Shown: piece by piece, positions 32,425 through 40,838 of the stretch
How the letters are laid out: every line of letters begins with the position of its first letter
How positions within the stretch are numbered: the first letter of the stretch is position 1
Assembly: GCA_018656645.1 (NCBI GenBank)
Contig: JABHZL010000046.1
Location: 1-49,184 of the forward strand
From: Phycisphaerae bacterium
GTDB lineage: Bacteria > Planctomycetota > Phycisphaerae > Phycisphaerales > SM1A02
Direction of reading: 5' to 3'
DNA length: 49,184 nucleotides
Notes under the pieces: model-generated
What the model was told of the DNA's origin: nothing
Seen by the model: the letters and a program-made list of their open reading frames with translations, nothing else
Database searches by the model: none
Made by a program: the position numbers and the translations under genes

Positions 32425-32832
32425 ATGATTCGCAAACGAGCGATCAATTGTTGTATCTATATATTGAGTGCGCTGTTTGTACGCACTTCTTTTGGTGGAT
32501 ATTTGGCTTCCCAGCCACTGCCTTTGCCTACTCCAAAAGCAGAGCAAACCACAGTGTGGCTCGGACTTTGGGATGTGTGCCTCGCCTTGCTAGTCATTGT
32601 TGGATTACTTTTTGTAATTCGCTGGCTCTTTGGTCGGATGTGTGGAGGCAAAACGCCCATTGTTGGCTCAAAACAGCGAAATATCTCTATTGTTGAACGA
32701 AAACCACTCGGAGGACGTCAATCGCTCCTTTTGGTGAGATGCCGTGATACTGAGGTTTTGCTGCATCAATCTAAGGGTCGTTTATCAACACTTTGTGTGC
32801 TTGATGCTGAAAAAAGAGAGGAAACTACATGA
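32425..32832 (+). CDS. fliO: Flagellar export protein FliO
   Basis: FliO helps assemble the FliP ring of the flagellar export gate. The 135-residue protein has an N-terminal signal-like segment, a single transmembrane helix (LWDVCLALLVIVGLLFVIRW, about 47-66) and a small cytoplasmic domain with RNISIVERKPLGGRQSLLLV and a VLLHQS element, as expected for FliO. AGGAAGG lies just before the ATG. It is the first gene of the flagellar unit and overlaps fliP by ATGA. Confidence 0.88.
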   Translation: MIRKRAINCCIYILSALFVRTSFGGYLASQPLPLPTPKAEQTTVWLGLWDVCLALLVIVGLLFVIRWLFGRMCGGKTPIVGSKQRNISIVERKPLGGRQSLLLVRCRDTEVLLHQSKGRLSTLCVLDAEKREETT

Positions 32833-33611
32833 ATTTCCTCGCAACGGCACTTCCAGACAATCCGATCGCTGCGCTTGAGCAAGCGGGGGCATTGCTTCCT
32901 GCAAGCGATGGTTCGATTGGCTCGACAATCAACGTACTTCTGTTGTTGACTGTGCTTGCTCTTGTGCCTTCTATTCTTGTGCTTTGCACCTGTTTTACAA
33001 GGTTTGTCGTTGTGCTTGCAGTTCTTCGCCAAGCACTTGGTTCTCCTTCGCTTCCGCCAACGCAAATTCTCGTTGGGTTGAGTCTCTTGCTTTCAGTTGT
33101 TGTCATGGCACCAACACTAGAACGAATGTACGACGATGGCATAAAGCCGATGATCGATGGAGAAATAACAAACTCTGAAGAAGCGTGGAAAAAAACAAAA
33201 AAACCAATCAGAGAGTTTATGTTTGCGCAAATTGAAGCAGCAGATAATTGGTCAACTGTCTACATGATGCTTGATTATCGGGGAGTTGATACATCGGATC
33301 CACGAAAATTAACAATGGATGATGTTGATACACTTAGTTTGATTCCAGCGTATGTGTTAAGTGAGTTAAAAACTGCTTTTTTGATCGGTTTCCGGATTTA
33401 CTTGCCGCTACTGGTTATTGATTTGCTCGTTTCTGGGTTGCTCGTTTCGATGGGCATGTTGATGTTGCCTCCAGTGTTGGTATCCCTTCCATTTAAAATA
33501 TTATTATTTGTTCTTGTTGATGGTTGGGAACTTGTTGTTGGTAATTTATTGCAAAGTGTCGCAGCGCCTGAAGGAGTCGCGATGCTTATGACTTCGGGAG
33601 GATTCGTATGA
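32829..33611 (+). CDS. fliP: Flagellar type III export gate protein FliP
   Basis: FliP forms the core of the export gate with FliQ and FliR. Signature sequences are present: SILVLCTCFTRFVVVLAVLRQALG near residue 45, PPTQILVGLSLLLSVVVM, and LIPAYVLSELKTAFLIGFRIYLPLLVIDL in the second half, followed by MGMLMLPPVLVSLPFKI. Four transmembrane segments are evident and the 260-residue length is normal. It is coupled to fliO and fliQ by ATGA overlaps. Confidence 0.97.
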   Translation: MNFLATALPDNPIAALEQAGALLPASDGSIGSTINVLLLLTVLALVPSILVLCTCFTRFVVVLAVLRQALGSPSLPPTQILVGLSLLLSVVVMAPTLERMYDDGIKPMIDGEITNSEEAWKKTKKPIREFMFAQIEAADNWSTVYMMLDYRGVDTSDPRKLTMDDVDTLSLIPAYVLSELKTAFLIGFRIYLPLLVIDLLVSGLLVSMGMLMLPPVLVSLPFKILLFVLVDGWELVVGNLLQSVAAPEGVAMLMTSGGFV

Positions 33612-33862
33612 CCGATGTTCTCATCGAAACATTGAAATCTGCATTGACGGTTGTGCTCGTTGTTGCATCTCCTATTTTATTGATTGGTTTGGTTGTAAGT
33701 TTGGTGATAAGTTTGATGCAAGCGATGACACAAGTACAAGAGCAAACAATTAGTTTGATTCCGCGAATGCTTGCGATGCTTATTGCTATTTTGATGCTCA
33801 TGTCTTGGATGTTTGGTCAAATAACTGGATTTGCAGAAGAAATGTTTAGGATGACACCATGA
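33608..33862 (+). CDS. fliQ: Flagellar export gate protein FliQ
   Basis: This 84-residue protein has two transmembrane helices and FliQ hallmarks: ASPILLIGLVVSLVISLMQA and TQVQEQTISLIPRMLAM. It is a structural subunit of the inner-membrane export gate. It overlaps fliP and fliR by four bases each. Confidence 0.96.
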   Translation: MTDVLIETLKSALTVVLVVASPILLIGLVVSLVISLMQAMTQVQEQTISLIPRMLAMLIAILMLMSWMFGQITGFAEEMFRMTP

Positions 33863-34623
33863 CAGCGCCGCTAGTTGGTTCATTGATAGGGCTGTTGGTT
33901 GTTATTGCTAGAGTTGGAGGCTTGGTACTCACTGCTCCAGTTCTTGCATCTCCTGCAATCCCAAAATTGATCCGAGTTGTAATAGCATTGACACTTGGTT
34001 TTGCTGTTTGGTCGTTGATTCCTCCACTTTCTGGGCTCACACAAAATGGAATTGGTTTGCTTGTACTCCTTGGTGTTGAATTTGCACTTGGGGCAACTAT
34101 TGGTTTTCTCATTAATATTCCACTCGTTGCATGTCAGATGAGTGGAACACTCATGGGGCAACAGATGAGTCTTGCACTGCCATCGATGCTCGATCCTTCC
34201 TCAGGATCGCAAACAGATGTACTCGGGCAGGGATTCATGATGCTCGCAGTCGTATGCTTTGTTGTGATTGGCGGTGTTGAGCAAACATTCTCAGCAATCG
34301 TTGCTAGTTTTTCTCATTTGCAAGCATCAGCACTTCTTGAACATGGACTAGCGCAATCATTGAGCGCGATGATTGATACAGCCTTTGAGTTTGCACTTCG
34401 AATGGCGTTGCCTATCCTTGCAGTGTTGTTGTTGCAAACAGCAGCGCTTGCTATTGTTGCAAGATCAATGCCCCAACTAAATATTTTTAGCATCGGTTTA
34501 CCGCTACGTATTCTTGTCGGATTGCTCGTTCTTGTTGGAGGACTTGCTTTTATTGGGCAAACGATGGAAACGTATTTGCCTCTTGGCATTGAGCAAGCGA
34601 CTTCATGGGCGGGCGTTGTCTAA
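33859..34623 (+). CDS. fliR: Flagellar export gate protein FliR
   Basis: FliR is the third gate subunit. The 254-residue protein has about six membrane segments and typical FliR parts: RVGGLVLTAPVLASPAIPKL at the start, GVEFALGATIGFLINIPLVA, SGTLMGQQMSLAL and PQLNIFSIGLPLRILVGLLV near the end. It overlaps fliQ by four bases, and its TAA stop overlaps the flhB start as TAATG. Confidence 0.96.
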   Translation: MTAPLVGSLIGLLVVIARVGGLVLTAPVLASPAIPKLIRVVIALTLGFAVWSLIPPLSGLTQNGIGLLVLLGVEFALGATIGFLINIPLVACQMSGTLMGQQMSLALPSMLDPSSGSQTDVLGQGFMMLAVVCFVVIGGVEQTFSAIVASFSHLQASALLEHGLAQSLSAMIDTAFEFALRMALPILAVLLLQTAALAIVARSMPQLNIFSIGLPLRILVGLLVLVGGLAFIGQTMETYLPLGIEQATSWAGVV

Positions 34624-35636
34624 TGTCATACGATCGCCAAGAAGCAACAGAGCAGCCAACTGACAGACGGCTAACACGTGCAAGAGAGGAAGGAAAAGTT
34701 GCGCGAAGTGGTGACTTCTCCTCTTCGGTGCTCTCGCTCGTTGCGATAGGATTTGCTTTGTATTGGTTTCCACAGATGCTTGTTGCAGTAGAGGGACTTC
34801 TTTCGACTGGTTTTTCGTTTTCAACAGAAGATCCAAATCTATTGCTTATGCAATCAGGCGTGTTCCTGTTACAAATCCTTCTGTTGCCATGCCTCGTTCT
34901 TTTTGCTGCTGCGGTGTTCGCAGGAGTAATACAAGTTGGGGGACTCTTTGCCCCAACTGCAGCCAAGGTGGATCCGAGTCGTGTTCATCCAGGTTCAGGT
35001 TGGATTTTGCTGTGGGGTGGACATGGCTGGATGAACTTGTTGTTTTCATGTTGCAAGTTGACAGCAGCAGTCATTGCTGCAGGTGCGGTAGGTTGGTCAT
35101 ATAAAAACGAATTGTTATCCCCTTCAGGTGGCGAGCTCATGGCAGAGCTTTCAACGGTTGGGACGATCGCAGGAAAAATGGTTTTTGCTTCTGCCGGTAG
35201 TTTGTTTGTTTTGGGTGTGCTCGATGTTGTCTGGCAACGATATTTGTGGAAATCAAGATTAAAGATGACTCGGCAAGAAGTGATCACAGAGCAAAAAGAA
35301 CAACAGGGCAACGCAAAAATTCGGCAAACAGTGCCATTTGATCATTATGCGAGCGAACGTATTCCGCCTTCGCTTGTTCTCGTTGGAAAAACAATTGCAA
35401 TTTCGATTCGTTGGAACCCAACAACGATGACTTCACCTGTTGTTCTAGCATTTATTCGTGAGGATGAAATTGACTCCATCACAGAGAAGGCAAAATTACA
35501 AAAAATTCCAGTTGAGGTTAATTACTGGTTGTGCAGTCGAGTTGAACAAAGTTGTGATATTGGCACTGCAGTACCGCCTTCATTACACAGTGAAATCGCA
35601 TCGGTGCTCACTCGTGGGAGGAGAAAAATCGCATGA
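34623..35636 (+). CDS. flhB: Flagellar export switch protein FlhB with altered NPTH site
   Basis: FlhB has four N-terminal transmembrane helices and a cytoplasmic domain that normally cleaves itself between Asn and Pro of an NPTH motif to switch substrate class. The N-terminus is typical (EATEQPTDRRLTRAREEGKV), as are FAPTAAKVDPSRVHPGSGW and TRQEVITEQKEQQGN. The cleavage site here reads WNPTTMTSP: Asn265, Pro266 and Thr267 are kept but His is Thr268, and the loop after it is about a dozen residues shorter than usual. The length is 337 residues. I chose 34623 because the domain starts there and its ATG overlaps the fliR stop; a start 18 bases earlier is possible. It overlaps flhA by ATGA. Confidence 0.95.
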   Translation: MSYDRQEATEQPTDRRLTRAREEGKVARSGDFSSSVLSLVAIGFALYWFPQMLVAVEGLLSTGFSFSTEDPNLLLMQSGVFLLQILLLPCLVLFAAAVFAGVIQVGGLFAPTAAKVDPSRVHPGSGWILLWGGHGWMNLLFSCCKLTAAVIAAGAVGWSYKNELLSPSGGELMAELSTVGTIAGKMVFASAGSLFVLGVLDVVWQRYLWKSRLKMTRQEVITEQKEQQGNAKIRQTVPFDHYASERIPPSLVLVGKTIAISIRWNPTTMTSPVVLAFIREDEIDSITEKAKLQKIPVEVNYWLCSRVEQSCDIGTAVPPSLHSEIASVLTRGRRKIA

Positions 35637-37714
35637 ATAATATTTCAAGTAGTTTTGAATATTTCTTGAGACAACTTGCATCGCATCGCCATTACCTTGT
35701 GCCCGGTCTATTGTTGAGTTTGGTTGCTGTACTTGTTGTTCCATTACCTCCGGGTATTCTTGACGTGCTGCTTGCAGCCAATATTTCACTAGCCGCAGTT
35801 ATTTTGCTCACGACAATCTATACAAAAAGTCCATTGGATTTCAGTGTATTTCCTGCATTATTGTTGATCACTACCCTTGGCAGGCTTGTACTGAATGTCG
35901 CATCAACACGTTTGATTCTTTCAGCGGATGCAAGTTCGCCTGAGGCGGCAGTGGGAATGGCAGGACATGTAATTGAAGCGTTTGGTGGGTTTGTCGCTGG
36001 ATCTAGCATCATTGTTGGTGCGATTATCTTTTTGATTTTAGTTATTGTGCAATTTGTTGTTATTACCAAAGGCGCAACACGCATGAGTGAAGTCGCTGCT
36101 CGTTTTACACTTGACGCAATGCCCGGACGTCAGATGGCGATTGATGCAGATCTCTCCGCAGGTTTGATAAAAGAGCGTGAAGCTACGGATCGTCGTGACC
36201 GAGTGTTACGAGAAGCAGATTTTTATGGCGCGATGGATGGAGCAAGTAAGTTTGTACGCGGCGATGCGATTGCAGGTCTTGTCATTATTGTCGTGAATAT
36301 TGTTGGTGGTCTTGGTGTTGGCCTTCTTGAACGAGGGTGGTCTCCTGGTGCAACGTTTGATTTGTTTACTCGTTTGACAATTGGTGATGGTTTAGCAAGT
36401 CAAATTCCATCTTTTCTCATTGCAGTTGCAGCTGGGTTGATTGTCGCAAGAGCAGGCGATCGCCGCCCATTAGGTATGGAAATACCTACGCAATTAGTTT
36501 CTCAACCAGCAGCGCTTGCACTTGTTGCTAGTTTTCTCGTGGTCCTGTCTATTCTTACACCCTTGCCAACATTTCCACTGTTGATTCTTGCAGCAGTTTT
36601 AGGCGGCCTCGCTTGGTCGTCGCATCAACAGCGAATCGAAGAAGAAAAGCAGGATGCAATTGAAGAACCAATTGTGATTCCAGAAACAAATACTGTCGCT
36701 CCAGTTGTTGACATGTTGCAGGTAGAACTTGGCATCGGATTGCTTTCACTTGCTCAAGTTGAACAGGGCGGCCAACTGTTAGAACGATTTTCTGCAGTTC
36801 GTGCATCTATTTCACAAGAATTAGGTCTTGTTGTTCCTCCAATTCGTGTGTTAGATAATATTGAACTGGCAAATTCTTCGTACAGGATTAAAATTCGTGG
36901 AGGAATTGTTGGTGAAGGGACACTTCATCGTGACAGAGAGATGGTTGTCGTTGGAGAAGAAGTTGGTCGAGGCTTTGATGGTATTCGAGAAAAAGAACCA
37001 GTTTTTGGTTTGTCTGCACTGTGGATTTCAACAGACCGTTCTGAAGAAGCCAGAGAATTAGGATTAACAAGTGTAGATGCTCTTTCAGTTCTCGTTACAC
37101 ATCTCTCTCAAATCGTCACACACCATGCTTCTGAACTCATTTCATGGGAAGAAGTCTCGAGGCTTGTTGAAGGTTTAAAACAAACTTCTCCTCGGCTTGT
37201 TGAAGAAACGATGAGTGAATCACTGACAATTTCAAAGTTACATCGAATTGTGAAGTTGTTGCTTGCTGAACAAGTTCCGATTATTGATATGGAAACAATT
37301 GTTGAAACTTCTGCAGACCATATTTGTGGTTCGATCGAAACATGTGTTGAGAAAGTACGAATTGCACTTAGAAGACAAATTTGTTCGCAAGTTTCATCTC
37401 AAAATGTACATGGGCAACAGTCAATCCAATGCATCACACTTCCGCCTGCGATTGAATCTGCATTACACCGAAATACATATTCAGATTTGCAACCCAAAAC
37501 ACTCTCAACAGCGCTATCACGTGCTACTGCTCCGATTGTACGTGAAGGGCGACCTGCAGTTGTTGTTGTATCTTCTGAGGCTGCTCGACGATTTTTACGA
37601 GAGGCAGTTGCCCAATATGAACCTTCGATTGTCATTCTTAGCCAGCAAGAAATTGTCACCGAGGTTGATTTGGAAGTAGTAGGCACGATTGATGTCGCTT
37701 CGCGAGCGTCGTAG
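35633..37714 (+). CDS. flhA: Flagellar export protein FlhA
   Basis: FlhA forms the nonameric export ring. About eight transmembrane segments occupy the first 320 residues. The FHIPEP-type region is recognisable in DFSVFPALLLITTLGRLVLN, TKGATRMSEVAARFTLDAMPGRQMAID and EREATDRRDRVLREADFYGAMDGASKFV. The cytoplasmic domain starts after a charged linker (HQQRIEEEKQDAIEE) and includes VVPPIRVLDN. The length of 693 residues is normal. The gene follows flhB by a four-base overlap. Confidence 0.97.
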   Translation: MNNISSSFEYFLRQLASHRHYLVPGLLLSLVAVLVVPLPPGILDVLLAANISLAAVILLTTIYTKSPLDFSVFPALLLITTLGRLVLNVASTRLILSADASSPEAAVGMAGHVIEAFGGFVAGSSIIVGAIIFLILVIVQFVVITKGATRMSEVAARFTLDAMPGRQMAIDADLSAGLIKEREATDRRDRVLREADFYGAMDGASKFVRGDAIAGLVIIVVNIVGGLGVGLLERGWSPGATFDLFTRLTIGDGLASQIPSFLIAVAAGLIVARAGDRRPLGMEIPTQLVSQPAALALVASFLVVLSILTPLPTFPLLILAAVLGGLAWSSHQQRIEEEKQDAIEEPIVIPETNTVAPVVDMLQVELGIGLLSLAQVEQGGQLLERFSAVRASISQELGLVVPPIRVLDNIELANSSYRIKIRGGIVGEGTLHRDREMVVVGEEVGRGFDGIREKEPVFGLSALWISTDRSEEARELGLTSVDALSVLVTHLSQIVTHHASELISWEEVSRLVEGLKQTSPRLVEETMSESLTISKLHRIVKLLLAEQVPIIDMETIVETSADHICGSIETCVEKVRIALRRQICSQVSSQNVHGQQSIQCITLPPAIESALHRNTYSDLQPKTLSTALSRATAPIVREGRPAVVVVSSEAARRFLREAVAQYEPSIVILSQQEIVTEVDLEVVGTIDVASRAS

Positions 37715-37741: not shown

Positions 37742-38722
37742 ATGAGTAGAAATAAACGCACAACAGAGCCGCCAGTGGCAACCCTAGAAGACCGAGAAAA
37801 AACGGTTGCTTATGCTAAATCACTACTCAAAGAGAATAAAGATACTTCAATCGACGCTGCTAAAATTGAAGAGGGAATAGAAGAAATTCGTTCTATGGTT
37901 GGTGAGGTACTTGAGCATGGATCTGCCGGATGGCTTTCTCCAGCACTTGCTCAATCACACGCATGGCTAGTTTCTCAGGGTATACCTGATGATGAAGCAA
38001 CAACTGTTGTGCAGCGTGCTGGTGAAGGCTCAGACATAGATAGAGATACATTGCATCAGCGGTTGGTTGAAACTTTTTTGACTAGGCTGCCTTCGTGTAC
38101 GCTGCCCCCAAGAAGAGAAGCTGGGCAACGAGCGGTGATTGCATTGATTGGTCCAACAGGGGTTGGCAAGACAACTACGATTGCAAAGCTTGCTACTCGC
38201 TTCCGTTTACAACAGGGTCGACGCGTTGCGTTGATTACTGCAGATACATACAGAATTGCAGCGGTCGATCAACTGCAAAAATATGCAGAGCTTGTTGACG
38301 CTTCATTTTATGTTGCAAGTACGAAACAGCAAATGCGTGAAACGATTGCATCAATACATGATGTTGATGTAATTCTGATTGATACTGCTGGTCGTAGTCG
38401 GACTGACGGCGATCGAATACAAGAAACAGGTGAAATTGTTGCTGCCGCCGAGCCAACTGAGCGGCACCTTGTGTTGTCGGCTGCGACATCATTAACAGCA
38501 ACACGAAGAGCTGCAGAAAGTTTTATGGTGACCGGTTGCGACCGTATCATTGTCACGAAGTTAGACGAGGCTGGTTCATTAGGTGAAATTATTTCAACTC
38601 TCAGCGAACTTCAATTGCCAGTGAGTTGGTTTACAAACGGGCAGGATGTATCGGCAAATATTGAGCCAGCAAAAATGGAACGACTTGTCGAATCTTTGCT
38701 ACCTACTGGATGCATCGCGTGA
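37742..38722 (+). CDS. flhF: SRP-type GTPase FlhF
   Basis: FlhF is a signal-recognition-type GTPase that positions flagella. The N domain is helical. The G domain has GPTGVGKTTT (137-146), ITADTYRIAAVDQLQKYAEL, DTAGR (214-218) and TKLDEA (272-277), typical of the SRP/FtsY/FlhF class. The N-terminal region before the GTPase is short (about 125 residues), so the basic domain is reduced. TATGAT ends eight bases before the ATG, so the gene may also have its own leaderless promoter inside the flagellar cluster. It overlaps flhG by 13 bases. Confidence 0.95.
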   Translation: MSRNKRTTEPPVATLEDREKTVAYAKSLLKENKDTSIDAAKIEEGIEEIRSMVGEVLEHGSAGWLSPALAQSHAWLVSQGIPDDEATTVVQRAGEGSDIDRDTLHQRLVETFLTRLPSCTLPPRREAGQRAVIALIGPTGVGKTTTIAKLATRFRLQQGRRVALITADTYRIAAVDQLQKYAELVDASFYVASTKQQMRETIASIHDVDVILIDTAGRSRTDGDRIQETGEIVAAAEPTERHLVLSAATSLTATRRAAESFMVTGCDRIIVTKLDEAGSLGEIISTLSELQLPVSWFTNGQDVSANIEPAKMERLVESLLPTGCIA

Positions 38723-39549
38723 TAGAGAAAGCGTGTAGTGACGATTCACATCGTAAGCCTCGCCGAGCGGGGCGTGCGATTGTTGTTACATCTGGAAAGG
38801 GGGGTGTGGGAAAAACGAATATTTCCGTAAATCTTGCTGTTTCACTTTCGCAACTTGGTCGCAAAGTGACAGTCATGGATGCAGATCTAGGAATGGCGAA
38901 TGCGGATGTACTTTGTGATTTAACTTTGCGAAATGGTCTTGAAGATGTTGTTTCAGGAAAAAAGAAATTAGATGAAATTGCTATTACGGCACCTGGTGGG
39001 TTTAAATTACTTCCAGGAGCTGGCGGTGTTCCCTCCATTGCAGACTTGCCGGAAGTAGATCGGAATCGCTTGATCGATGCGCTTGCAAGACTTGAAGCGC
39101 GAAACGATTATTTGATTGTTGACACTGGCGCAGGGATAGGTGCTTCTGTGATGGGATTTGTTGTAGCAGTTGAACGTGTACTTCTTATTACTACTCCGGA
39201 GCCAACTGCAATTACCGATGCTTACGCAATGCTTAAAACAATTCGTAAGCGTAGACCAAAAACTCGGGCAAGGCTGGTCGTAAATCAAGTTGAATCGCTC
39301 GCTGAGGGGATTGCGGTTCATGGTCGCATCGATCAGGCTTCGAGACGGTTTTTAGGGGTCGGTATCGGATTTGCGGGGTCAATTCCAAAAGATCCACAAA
39401 TCCCACTTGCTGTACGCAGGCGTTCACCGGTGGTGATCAACGCCCCAAAATCCCCTGCTGCCAAAGCAATTCAAAGGCTCGCCGCCTCTATCGACGGCTC
39501 GCCAGTCCAGGAACGCAGATCATTGCTCTCATTTTTGACTCGTTCCTGA
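38710..39549 (+). CDS. flhG: FlhG/YlxH-type MinD-like ATPase
   Basis: FlhG controls flagellar number or placement together with FlhF. A deviant Walker A motif SGKGGVGKT lies at 28-36, followed by DADLGMANADVLCDL and GFKLLPGAGGVPSIADL. The conserved Asp region reads LIVDTGAGIGASVM. The 279-residue length is normal. The start lies inside the end of flhF. A Gly/Lys-rich N-terminal tail precedes the ATPase domain. It is the last gene before a 206-base gap that leads to the sigma-factor gene. Confidence 0.94.
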   Translation: MHRVIEKACSDDSHRKPRRAGRAIVVTSGKGGVGKTNISVNLAVSLSQLGRKVTVMDADLGMANADVLCDLTLRNGLEDVVSGKKKLDEIAITAPGGFKLLPGAGGVPSIADLPEVDRNRLIDALARLEARNDYLIVDTGAGIGASVMGFVVAVERVLLITTPEPTAITDAYAMLKTIRKRRPKTRARLVVNQVESLAEGIAVHGRIDQASRRFLGVGIGFAGSIPKDPQIPLAVRRRSPVVINAPKSPAAKAIQRLAASIDGSPVQERRSLLSFLTRS

Positions 39550-39658: not shown

Positions 39659-39763
39659 TCTATTTTGCCACATCTGAGGGGTCCATTCTCGGACTCTTAG
39701 CAGGTGGATCAGCATGCAGTTTCTCTTGCAATGTTAATTTTTCTCTTCGAATTAGTTGAGCGC

Positions 39764-39805
39764 AGAAGATCTGAATGTGATCTTCTATAAGGAGTACTTC
39801 GTACT
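39764..39805 (+). other. Twin hairpins just upstream of the sigma-factor start
   Basis: AGAAGATC (39764-39771) pairs with GATCTTCT (39779-39786) and AGTAC (39793-39797) pairs with GTACT (39801-39805). AAGGAG at 39789-39794 lies between and partly within them. No in-frame start codon lies at a normal distance from that AAGGAG. The next ATG is at 39819. The hairpins could be a translational control element or remnants of a longer leader. Confidence 0.4.
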
Positions 39806-39818
39806 TAATTTTCGCTTT

Positions 39819-40838
39819 ATGTCAAACAATTACGCAACACCATTAACCAACACGCCCTCTGCGCGGTATAGTCTTGGCAACATCGATGCCAAGGATCGGC
39901 AGGATGTTGAAAGTTTTCCGTTTTCTAATGTAGAAGACGCAGGACAAAATACGTTAGGGTCAAGGAGTCGACCGATGCCAAGTGCAACAGTATCAAAAAC
40001 AAAACAAGATACGAAATCTCAGTACACATTCACTGGAAAGGTCCCAAAGGGCTTAGACAAGATTGTGTCAACACCTCGCGGCGATATGGAATTGCTCCAT
40101 GTCTGGCTGACGTACAAAGCGGAAGGTACGCAAGAGTGGCGGAATGTTCTGATTGAACAATATCTCACGCTTGTTCGCTATACCGCAGAACGTTTGCATT
40201 ACAAATTACCTTCTGAAGTTGATGTCGATGATCTCTACTCAGCTGGTGTGTTTGGTTTGATGCATGCGATCAATGCGTATGATCTTTCAAGAGGGATTAA
40301 ATTTGAAACATATTGTACGCAGCGCGTCATGGGAGCGATCTACGACGAACTGCGTGCAAACGACTGGGTTCCACGCCTCGTCCGATCTCGAACTGCGAAA
40401 GTCGAGCGAGCTCGTAAGGCGATCGAAATGGAAACCGGCGAAAAAGCGACGAATGATGAAATCATCAATCACATGGAAGTAGATTCGAATGAGTTTGAAA
40501 AACTTGATCGTGATTCTCGCCCTGTGATGATGACGTCGCTGAATCGAAAAGCGTACGACAGCGATTCAAGCCGTGAAGTGACTGAGATTGATGTGATCTC
40601 AGATGATCGTCAAGAGAATCCTGTGCATGAATTGCAAAAGAAAGACCTCCAACTGTTGTTGACCAAGGGGCTTTCAAGAGCAGAACACTTGATCGTCGTA
40701 CTGTATTACTACGAAGAGATGACTATGAAGGAAATTGGCGCGACTCTTGATCTATCAGAATCACGCGTAAGTCAAATGCACTCATCTATCCTTGCTCGTC
40801 TTAAAGCGCAAATGCAACATCGTTGCAAAGAGTTTTGA
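39819..40838 (+). CDS. fliA: FliA/WhiG-type flagellar sigma factor
   Basis: This sigma-28-class factor directs RNA polymerase to late flagellar genes in other bacteria. Region 2 is clear (VDVDDLYSAGVFGLMHAINAYDLSRGIKFETYC, read in parts) with the RVMGAIYDELRANDWVPR segment typical of the FliA/WhiG group. Region 3 follows (TAKVERARKAIEMETGEKAT). Region 4 is also clear (VVLYYYEEMTMKEIGATL, SESRVSQMHSSIL). About 80 residues before the sigma core are low-complexity Ser/Thr/Asn-rich, unusual for the group. The start is uncertain: 39819 is supported by TAATTT ending seven bases upstream, while a TTG at 39756 would add 21 residues across the hairpins. An in-frame ATG at 39975 is a further option. 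Confidence 0.9.
   Translation: MSNNYATPLTNTPSARYSLGNIDAKDRQDVESFPFSNVEDAGQNTLGSRSRPMPSATVSKTKQDTKSQYTFTGKVPKGLDKIVSTPRGDMELLHVWLTYKAEGTQEWRNVLIEQYLTLVRYTAERLHYKLPSEVDVDDLYSAGVFGLMHAINAYDLSRGIKFETYCTQRVMGAIYDELRANDWVPRLVRSRTAKVERARKAIEMETGEKATNDEIINHMEVDSNEFEKLDRDSRPVMMTSLNRKAYDSDSSREVTEIDVISDDRQENPVHELQKKDLQLLLTKGLSRAEHLIVVLYYYEEMTMKEIGATLDLSESRVSQMHSSILARLKAQMQHRCKEF

Follow-up and report, generated by a model that had tools for sequence, protein, structure and literature searches.

To our knowledge, self-cutting of FlhB is nearly universal in flagellar and injectisome systems; the exact job of the cut is still debated, and the asparagine of the FlhB/SctU site is required for the Asn-Pro autocleavage chemistry. 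In Salmonella FlhB, the NPTH site lies between strands β1 and β2, the β2–β3 loop from Tyr279 to Pro287 is variable, and replacement of Asn269 by Ala abolishes cleavage and locks export in the hook-type mode (PMC3640470). Salmonella has also been shown to be capable of ATPase-independent type III export (PMC4230889). Among bacteria without flagella, genes for flagellar export are already known from Lysobacter, the Chlamydiae and the Myxococcales. The non-flagellated Lysobacter enzymogenes OH11 exports a test flagellin through FT3SS-like genes in a FliI-dependent manner and uses flhA, flhB, fliI and fliR for twitching (PMC7277350), and FliO occurs in non-flagellated species (PMC12248157). A literature search over titles and the starts of abstracts, covering few subscription papers and with bioRxiv outside its range, found no flagellum-less Phycisphaerales gates, no NPTH-less FlhB tied to flagellum loss and no FlhA–FlhF fusion.

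The window, that is, the whole stretch of DNA analysed, is a complete contig of 49,184 bases from a draft genome of 2.0 Mb (98.25% complete) belonging to a genus coded g1 in a family coded f1. Isolate names within the genus, among them MED703 and SI073, hint at a marine origin of the samples. Pfam assignments give the gene order fliO-fliP-fliQ-fliR-flhB-flhA-flhF-flhG-fliA, as follows:

fliO, 32425..32832, + strand, PF04347
fliP, 32829..33611, + strand, PF00813
fliQ, 33608..33862, + strand, PF01313
fliR, 33859..34623, + strand, PF01311
flhB, 34623..35636, + strand, 337-aa subunit of the export gate, comprising membrane helices and a cytoplasmic switch domain from which NPTH is missing
flhA, 35633..37714, + strand, 693 aa, full length, with R94, D208 and D249 (Salmonella numbering) kept and the GYXLI Tyr replaced by Ile
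flhF, 37742..38722, + strand, SRP-type GTPase
flhG, 38710..39549, + strand, ParA/MinD-type ATPase without the FlhF-activating helix DQAxxLR
fliA-type sigma factor, 39819..40838, + strand, sigma-70 regions 2 and 4, start chosen inside a longer frame at 39756-40838

All five gate proteins (FliPQR, FlhB and FlhA) are encoded in one operon in the window and in five further members of the genus. Genome G004 has the same cluster as the window, flhG included, and G001, G005, G006 and G009 keep the cluster with flhG missing at this place; the contig of G011 begins inside a partial fliR and continues with flhB, flhA and the remainder to fliA. None of the seven flhB genes of the genus contains a stop, and no broken frame was seen across the whole operons of the window and the five others. 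An earlier note on this DNA had described the rest of the export set as intact, and this holds: fliO, fliP, fliQ, fliR and flhA are Pfam-supported, and FlhA is full length.

Our comparison with the closest described systems reveals both shared and divergent features. Like Salmonella FlhB, the window protein has membrane helices and the cytoplasmic domain fold, the operon context, a conserved linker start and the C-domain strands; unlike it, the window protein carries VGKT for NPTH, has a linker shorter by about 8 residues, scores below the NCBIfam flhB cut-off and has no partner flagellum that we could find. As in L. enzymogenes OH11, export-gate genes occur without flagellin, and there is evidence that the gate there can export and has taken on a new role; by comparison, that strain has FliI, none was found here, FlhB here is without the site, and sister species go to an FlhA–FlhF fusion. 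The non-flagellar T3SS of the Myxococcales is likewise flagellum-derived, without motility-essential parts, long conserved and once called a relic (PMC3459982), but it belongs to a different lineage, and here no ATPase was found. Chlamydiae likewise keep FlhA and FliF without a flagellum (PMC2830194), whereas they keep FliI and an injectisome (PMC3459982) and the present lineage keeps FliPQR–FlhB.

The window FlhB matches the PF01312 profile over its whole length (184.2 bits, E 5e-54, cut-off 24.4, profile positions 1–333 of 335) and has membrane helices and an SctU-type C-domain fold without an NPTH-type site; the flagellar FlhB equivalog model TIGR00328 gives it 142.5 bits, below its cut-off of 349.25. 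The ORF is intact and encodes W264-N265-P266-T267-T268, and NPTH occurs nowhere in the 337 residues. To this extent the observation made in the earlier note stands. Its two further statements, that NPTT replaces NPTH and that about a dozen residues are missing from the stretch behind it, do not agree with the placement of the following two elements:

codons V254-G255-K256-T257, 35382..35393, + strand, homologous to the NPTH autocleavage site in the β1–β2 turn, from alignments, an AlphaFold model and the spacing in PMC3640470
codons N265-P266-T267-T268, 35415..35426, + strand, β2–β3 loop within the YDPxTM block, from alignment, the AlphaFold model and the spacing in PMC3640470

In a 30-row FlhB alignment (7 sequences of the genus and 23 others from the family or order, 22 of the latter with NPxH), NPxH is matched by VGKT (residues 254–257) and the [YW]DPxTM block further downstream by WNPTTM, with zero gaps between them. 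The same placement of VGKT on NPxH is obtained in a 50-row alignment and in an alignment of 32 FlhBs reaching other phyla, in which the gaps of the window FlhB ahead of WNPTTM are confined to the upstream part, namely the linker and the positions immediately preceding β1; the real shortening thus amounts to about 5 residues in the linker and 3 just before β1. In addition, the spacing of 8 from W264 to P272 equals that from Tyr279 to Pro287 in Salmonella, and Salmonella N269 projects onto V254 (numbering from PMC3640470). The AlphaFold model (pLDDT 80.5, pTM 0.56) places β1 at 251–254, β2 at 258–263 and β3 at 273–279, so that NPTT sits in the β2–β3 loop, and the C-domain of the model superimposes on EscU, YscU and FlhB structures with rmsd mostly of 1.4–2.3 Å (few at 3.6–4.6 Å) and TMt of 0.57–0.83. 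By alignment and model, WNPTT is therefore assigned to the β2–β3 loop and not to the autocleavage site, that loop is unshortened, and the autocleavage motif is gone.

The seven FlhBs of the genus read VGKT, VGKA, VGKT, VGNK, VGNK, VGDT and SGSS at the site, and none of them has NPxH. The column of the catalytic asparagine holds Val in 6 and Ser in 1, so the idea that a retained Asn and Pro leave cleavage possible falls away; where this Asn is missing, autocleavage by the known Asn-Pro chemistry is impossible. Of the six sisters, G011 alone keeps the proline of WNPTT, and Ala takes its place in the remaining five (WNATTM, WNAMTM twice, WNAITM and WNASTM). The departure from NPTH that the earlier note had seen is confirmed, at the aligned place VGKT; the His-to-Thr change that it proposed to look for across the clade was seen in no family row, and flagellin-bearing relatives in the family carry NPEH, NPTH, NPDH or NPQH there. 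A sequencing error at residue 268, named in that note as a possible refutation, is excluded because all seven genus genomes lack NPxH. A frameshift or sequencing error was rejected on the strength of seven genomes, and a variant autocleavage site NPTT was rejected for its wrong homologous place.

The statement that these bacteria lack a flagellum rests on profile searches of draft genomes for flagellin, rod/hook, FliK, FliG, FliM/N and FliI, none of which was found in the genus. Among 20 draft genomes (13 of genus g1 and 7 other family members), the flagellin N-terminal (PF00669), rod/hook (PF00460), FliK (PF02120) and FliM/N (PF01052) profiles and FliI over its cut-off were detected in 0/13 genus genomes and only in G014 and G018, two flagellated family members positive for all six parts. 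FliG (PF01706) was likewise found in 0/13 genus genomes, and among the 20 in G014, G018 and G016, where it is fused to FliF. Weaker matches to the FliI model occur in 20/20 genomes, including 13/13 of the genus, and also in 14/14 control genomes (over the cut-off in 4), and are therefore taken for other ATPases. FliF (PF01514) was found in 8 of the 13 genus genomes as short frames of 375–418 aa, with matches beginning at profile position 52–81 of 179. Two side observations concern FliF. Two genes without a Pfam family (258 and 316 aa; L100:5601-7324) precede the short fliF in all eight genus genomes that have it, one of them fusion-bearing. In G016 (L108:9053-10987), in which flagellin, FliM/N and FliI were not detected by profile searches, a natural FliF–FliG fusion of 644 aa (PF01514 and PF01706) has a histidine kinase and a sigma-54 response regulator as neighbours.

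A survey of 181 family genomes, of which 118 have FlhB and 79 a flagellin match (78 above the Pfam cut-off; G062 below), extends the comparison beyond the genus. One FlhB place was read per genome in the 118 genomes, and NPxH was counted by aligned column; our own FlhB profile missed 11 of 14 sequences of genus g57, which were counted from a Pfam search and then read. Aligned NPxH is present in 78/78 genomes with both FlhB and a flagellin match (G108 has flagellin and no FlhB match), and in 6/40 genomes with FlhB and no flagellin match. The 34 site-less genomes comprise the seven of g1, G016 (GPGP), G015 (disturbed site), 11 of genus g25 and 14 of g57. In 25 of the 40, namely g25 and g57, the C-domain of FlhB is lost, the proteins ending shortly past the last membrane helix and the linker start, and a Pfam search gave no second PF01312 match in these genomes. 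The six genomes with NPxH and no flagellin match are G094, G127, G156, G178, G179 and G200 (completeness 86, 70, 68, 79, 92 and 88%, five below 90%); at 92% completeness, G179 at least must be either a genuine exception or a case of missed flagellin. In G179 (L158), which has an NPTH FlhB, FlhA lies on a long branch, so its cluster is possibly foreign or a product of misbinning. Besides the place counted, G156 carries another FlhB place that is split. On a 30-row FlhA tree, the state of the site changes at least 4 times, 3 of them forced by well-supported branches, so the NPxH and flagellin counts, which share descent, are not independent.

Codon substitution indicates that the gate is under purifying selection. 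Nei–Gojobori dN/dS was obtained for four pairs that are not all independent, three being among G000, G004 and G011, and dS is often near or above 1, G001/G009 being the sole pair far from saturation. Over fliO to fliA and fliF, dN/dS is about 0.01–0.22. In the four pairs it is 0.10–0.15 for FlhB (0.07–0.19 for its cytoplasmic part), 0.06–0.07 for FlhA, 0.01–0.09 for FliR (only 55 codons of FliR in G011), 0.04–0.13 for FlhF and 0.04–0.06 for FliA; in the two measurable pairs it is 0.18–0.22 for FliO, 0.04–0.10 for FliP and 0.05–0.07 for FliQ. The earlier view that this is not simple decay is supported by these values. In addition, Salmonella FlhA without R94, D208 or D249 fails to secrete FlgD (PMC3139655), and all three residues are kept in the window and in 9/9 other flagellum-less gates (G015, G016, three of g25 and four of g57), D208 being kept in 7/7 gates of the genus; the membrane-part columns R154, D158, D168, D193, D199 and K203 (Salmonella chain) were also read.

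Motifs linked to the flagellum are lost alongside the FlhB site: the GYXLI tyrosine of FlhA and, in the genus, also DQAxxLR of FlhG. GYXLI (PMC9431611), which Salmonella needs for normal export, lacks its Tyr in 21/21 non-NPxH rows holding that column (16 gate-bearing and 5 fusion rows; the G007 fusion falls short of it), and the Tyr is present in 15/15 NPxH rows of the family. This rule fails outside the family, where 4/10 NPxH rows have Gln. DQAxxLR, the FlhG helix that activates FlhF (PMC12826062), is missing from all three members of the genus with a retained flhG, whereas G014, G018 and G016 have it; G179, an NPxH genome, likewise lacks it, and the near-forms TQAANLR and GQADRLR occur in g25.

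We consider it likely that the window FlhB belongs to a type III export gate of flagellar kind which has outlived its flagellum, with the site lost and the subunit switch-less. The lineage would have lost flagellin, rod, hook, the FliK ruler, the C-ring and the FliI ATPase, with FliF shortened, and would have kept the membrane gate FliPQR–FlhB–FlhA together with FliO, FlhF, in some members FlhG, and the FliA-type sigma factor. With the hook-to-filament order gone, the autocleavage motif would no longer be selected, and the lack of detectable flagellum genes beyond the export set and the short FliF explains why the switch site could go. FlhB would have become an uncleavable, switch-less gate subunit, never cut and still constrained in sequence, in a gate fixed in one specificity; the gate may still move something across the inner membrane by proton motive force, without the ATPase, and FlhF may place it. 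What the sequences themselves record is the loss of the motif, the undetectable axial, ATPase and C-ring genes, the conservation of the gate, purifying selection and the NPxH–flagellin link. For a broader proposal the chances seem to us evenly balanced: within a single Phycisphaerales family, several genera may have recruited a minimal, ATPase-less and switch-less gate to a non-flagellar function, the gate shedding autocleavage or the C-domain at least three times and being rebuilt in some species into a single FliO–FlhA–FlhF membrane GTPase.

The FlhB self-cutting site is probably not needed any more in these small-genome planctomycetes. A gate that persists after loss of both flagellum and cut site would tie the site to hook–filament switching and not to export as such, and the clade would supply natural cleavage-free gates for testing. 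Furthermore, the graded series of full flagellum, dead-site gate, gate without the FlhB C-domain and FlhA–FlhF fusion may indicate how type III machines are reduced and reused. If the broader proposal is true, the state of the FlhB site would let one read from a genome whether a flagellum is still built. Several observations weigh against the retained-gate reading: the gate is dispensable in six sisters, the GYXLI Tyr is lost, and six flagellin-negative family genomes have NPxH.

The six sisters (G002, G003, G007, G008, G010 and G012) are without fliOPQR-flhB at the locus. No FlhB was found elsewhere in their genomes, and flhG and the FlhA membrane core are also gone at the locus; the gate is thus dispensable there, which also fits slow decay. 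In five of the six, FlhA is reduced to the last two membrane helices and the cytoplasmic domain, fused in frame to FlhF in stop-to-stop frames of 815–850 aa; the contig of G007 holds the later part of the fusion only, and there a single in-frame TAA interrupts the FlhA part. The feature and its equivalents are:

FliO(start)–FlhA–FlhF fusion, L110:4905-7454, with equivalents in L111, L112, L113, L114 and L115 (start not visible in L115)

In all five species with a visible start, the start of the fusion matches fliO starts of gate-bearing sister species over stretches of 45–180 bases at about 70–90% (blastn), with a best E for the fliO-derived start of 6e-14 to 8e-33 in four species and a weaker 9e-7 in G010; a single deletion bringing fliO and flhA together would give such a pattern. 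All six fusion-bearing species keep fliA, and a FliF match also occurs in G003. The unsaturated pair G003/G008 gives dN 0.12 and dS 0.84 for the fusion, the other two pairs being saturated or nearly so. AU tests, which included 4 to 6 of the six species depending on the gene, reject a single clade of fusion-bearing species for the housekeeping neighbours (p 0.0001; FtsH alone 0.0001, FliA alone 0.0015), whereas the FlhA–FlhF part does not reject it (p 0.31), so the fusion arose repeatedly or moved between species.

These fusions favour a role for the FlhA cytoplasmic ring with FlhF in the fusion-bearing species. It is possible, though we would not call it probable, that the ring and FlhF are the functional core, as a membrane GTPase platform for positioning, a type IV pilus or envelope control, with the export channel secondary and discardable; this overlaps with the retained-gate reading. 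In all six species fliA is kept and the cytoplasmic domain of FlhA, preceded wherever visible by the last TM pair, is joined to FlhF; the fliO-derived start is found in all five fusions whose start is visible, most weakly in G010. The FlhA docking dimple (equivalents of D456, F459 and T490; PMC8166844) is kept in all six, bar one F-to-Y change. Twitching in Lysobacter is affected by flhA, flhB and fliR and not by fliP or fliQ (PMC7277350). Such a core would, however, leave the strong selection on FliP, FliQ and FliR in the gate-bearing species unexplained.

That the export genes are instead leftovers of the lost flagellum in decay, under residual constraint only and due to disappear as in the six sisters, seems to us unlikely. 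The pattern of loss fits it: fliOPQR-flhB, flhG and the FlhA core have already gone at the locus in 6/13 genus genomes, G007 with its in-frame stop in the FlhA part, flhG is missing at the locus in four more, gate-bearing genomes, FlhB evolves faster than FlhA or FliP, and the FlhB C-domain is lost in g25 and g57. Against this, the seven flhB genes and six whole operons are unbroken, dN/dS stays within the range given above from fliO to fliA and fliF, the export-critical FlhA residues are intact, the unsaturated fusion pair has dN far below dS as quoted, and gates are retained in five family genera in genomes without detected flagellin.

A non-flagellar injectisome-type T3SS in place of a flagellar remnant is very improbable: the NCBIfam SctU and FlhB models do score the window FlhB about equally (144.3 and 142.5 bits), but both lie far below their cut-offs (358 and 349.25), the SctN/FliI-type ATPase model TIGR01026 is over its cut-off in 0/13 genus genomes, and the flagellar order fliPQR-flhBAFG-fliA is shared with two flagellated family members. 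Least credible, with next to no chance in our judgement, is the reading of NPTT as a variant autocleavage site that is cut more slowly or differently, with a short loop, in a working flagellum, for although the letters NPTT do occur in the FlhB C-domain, they stand at the wrong place by alignment, structure and spacing, their Pro is lost in five of six sisters, and flagellin, hook and FliK genes were not found in the genus genomes.

Variation at the true site was also noted elsewhere. Two other planctomycete FlhBs, of a Planctomycetales bacterium (L205:6001-7011) and of Pirellula staleyi (L212:414-1424), have NPTE there, and G060, a genome of the same order, has two FlhB loci (L037/L168 and L046), the site of one reading NPTH and that of the other APS-L.
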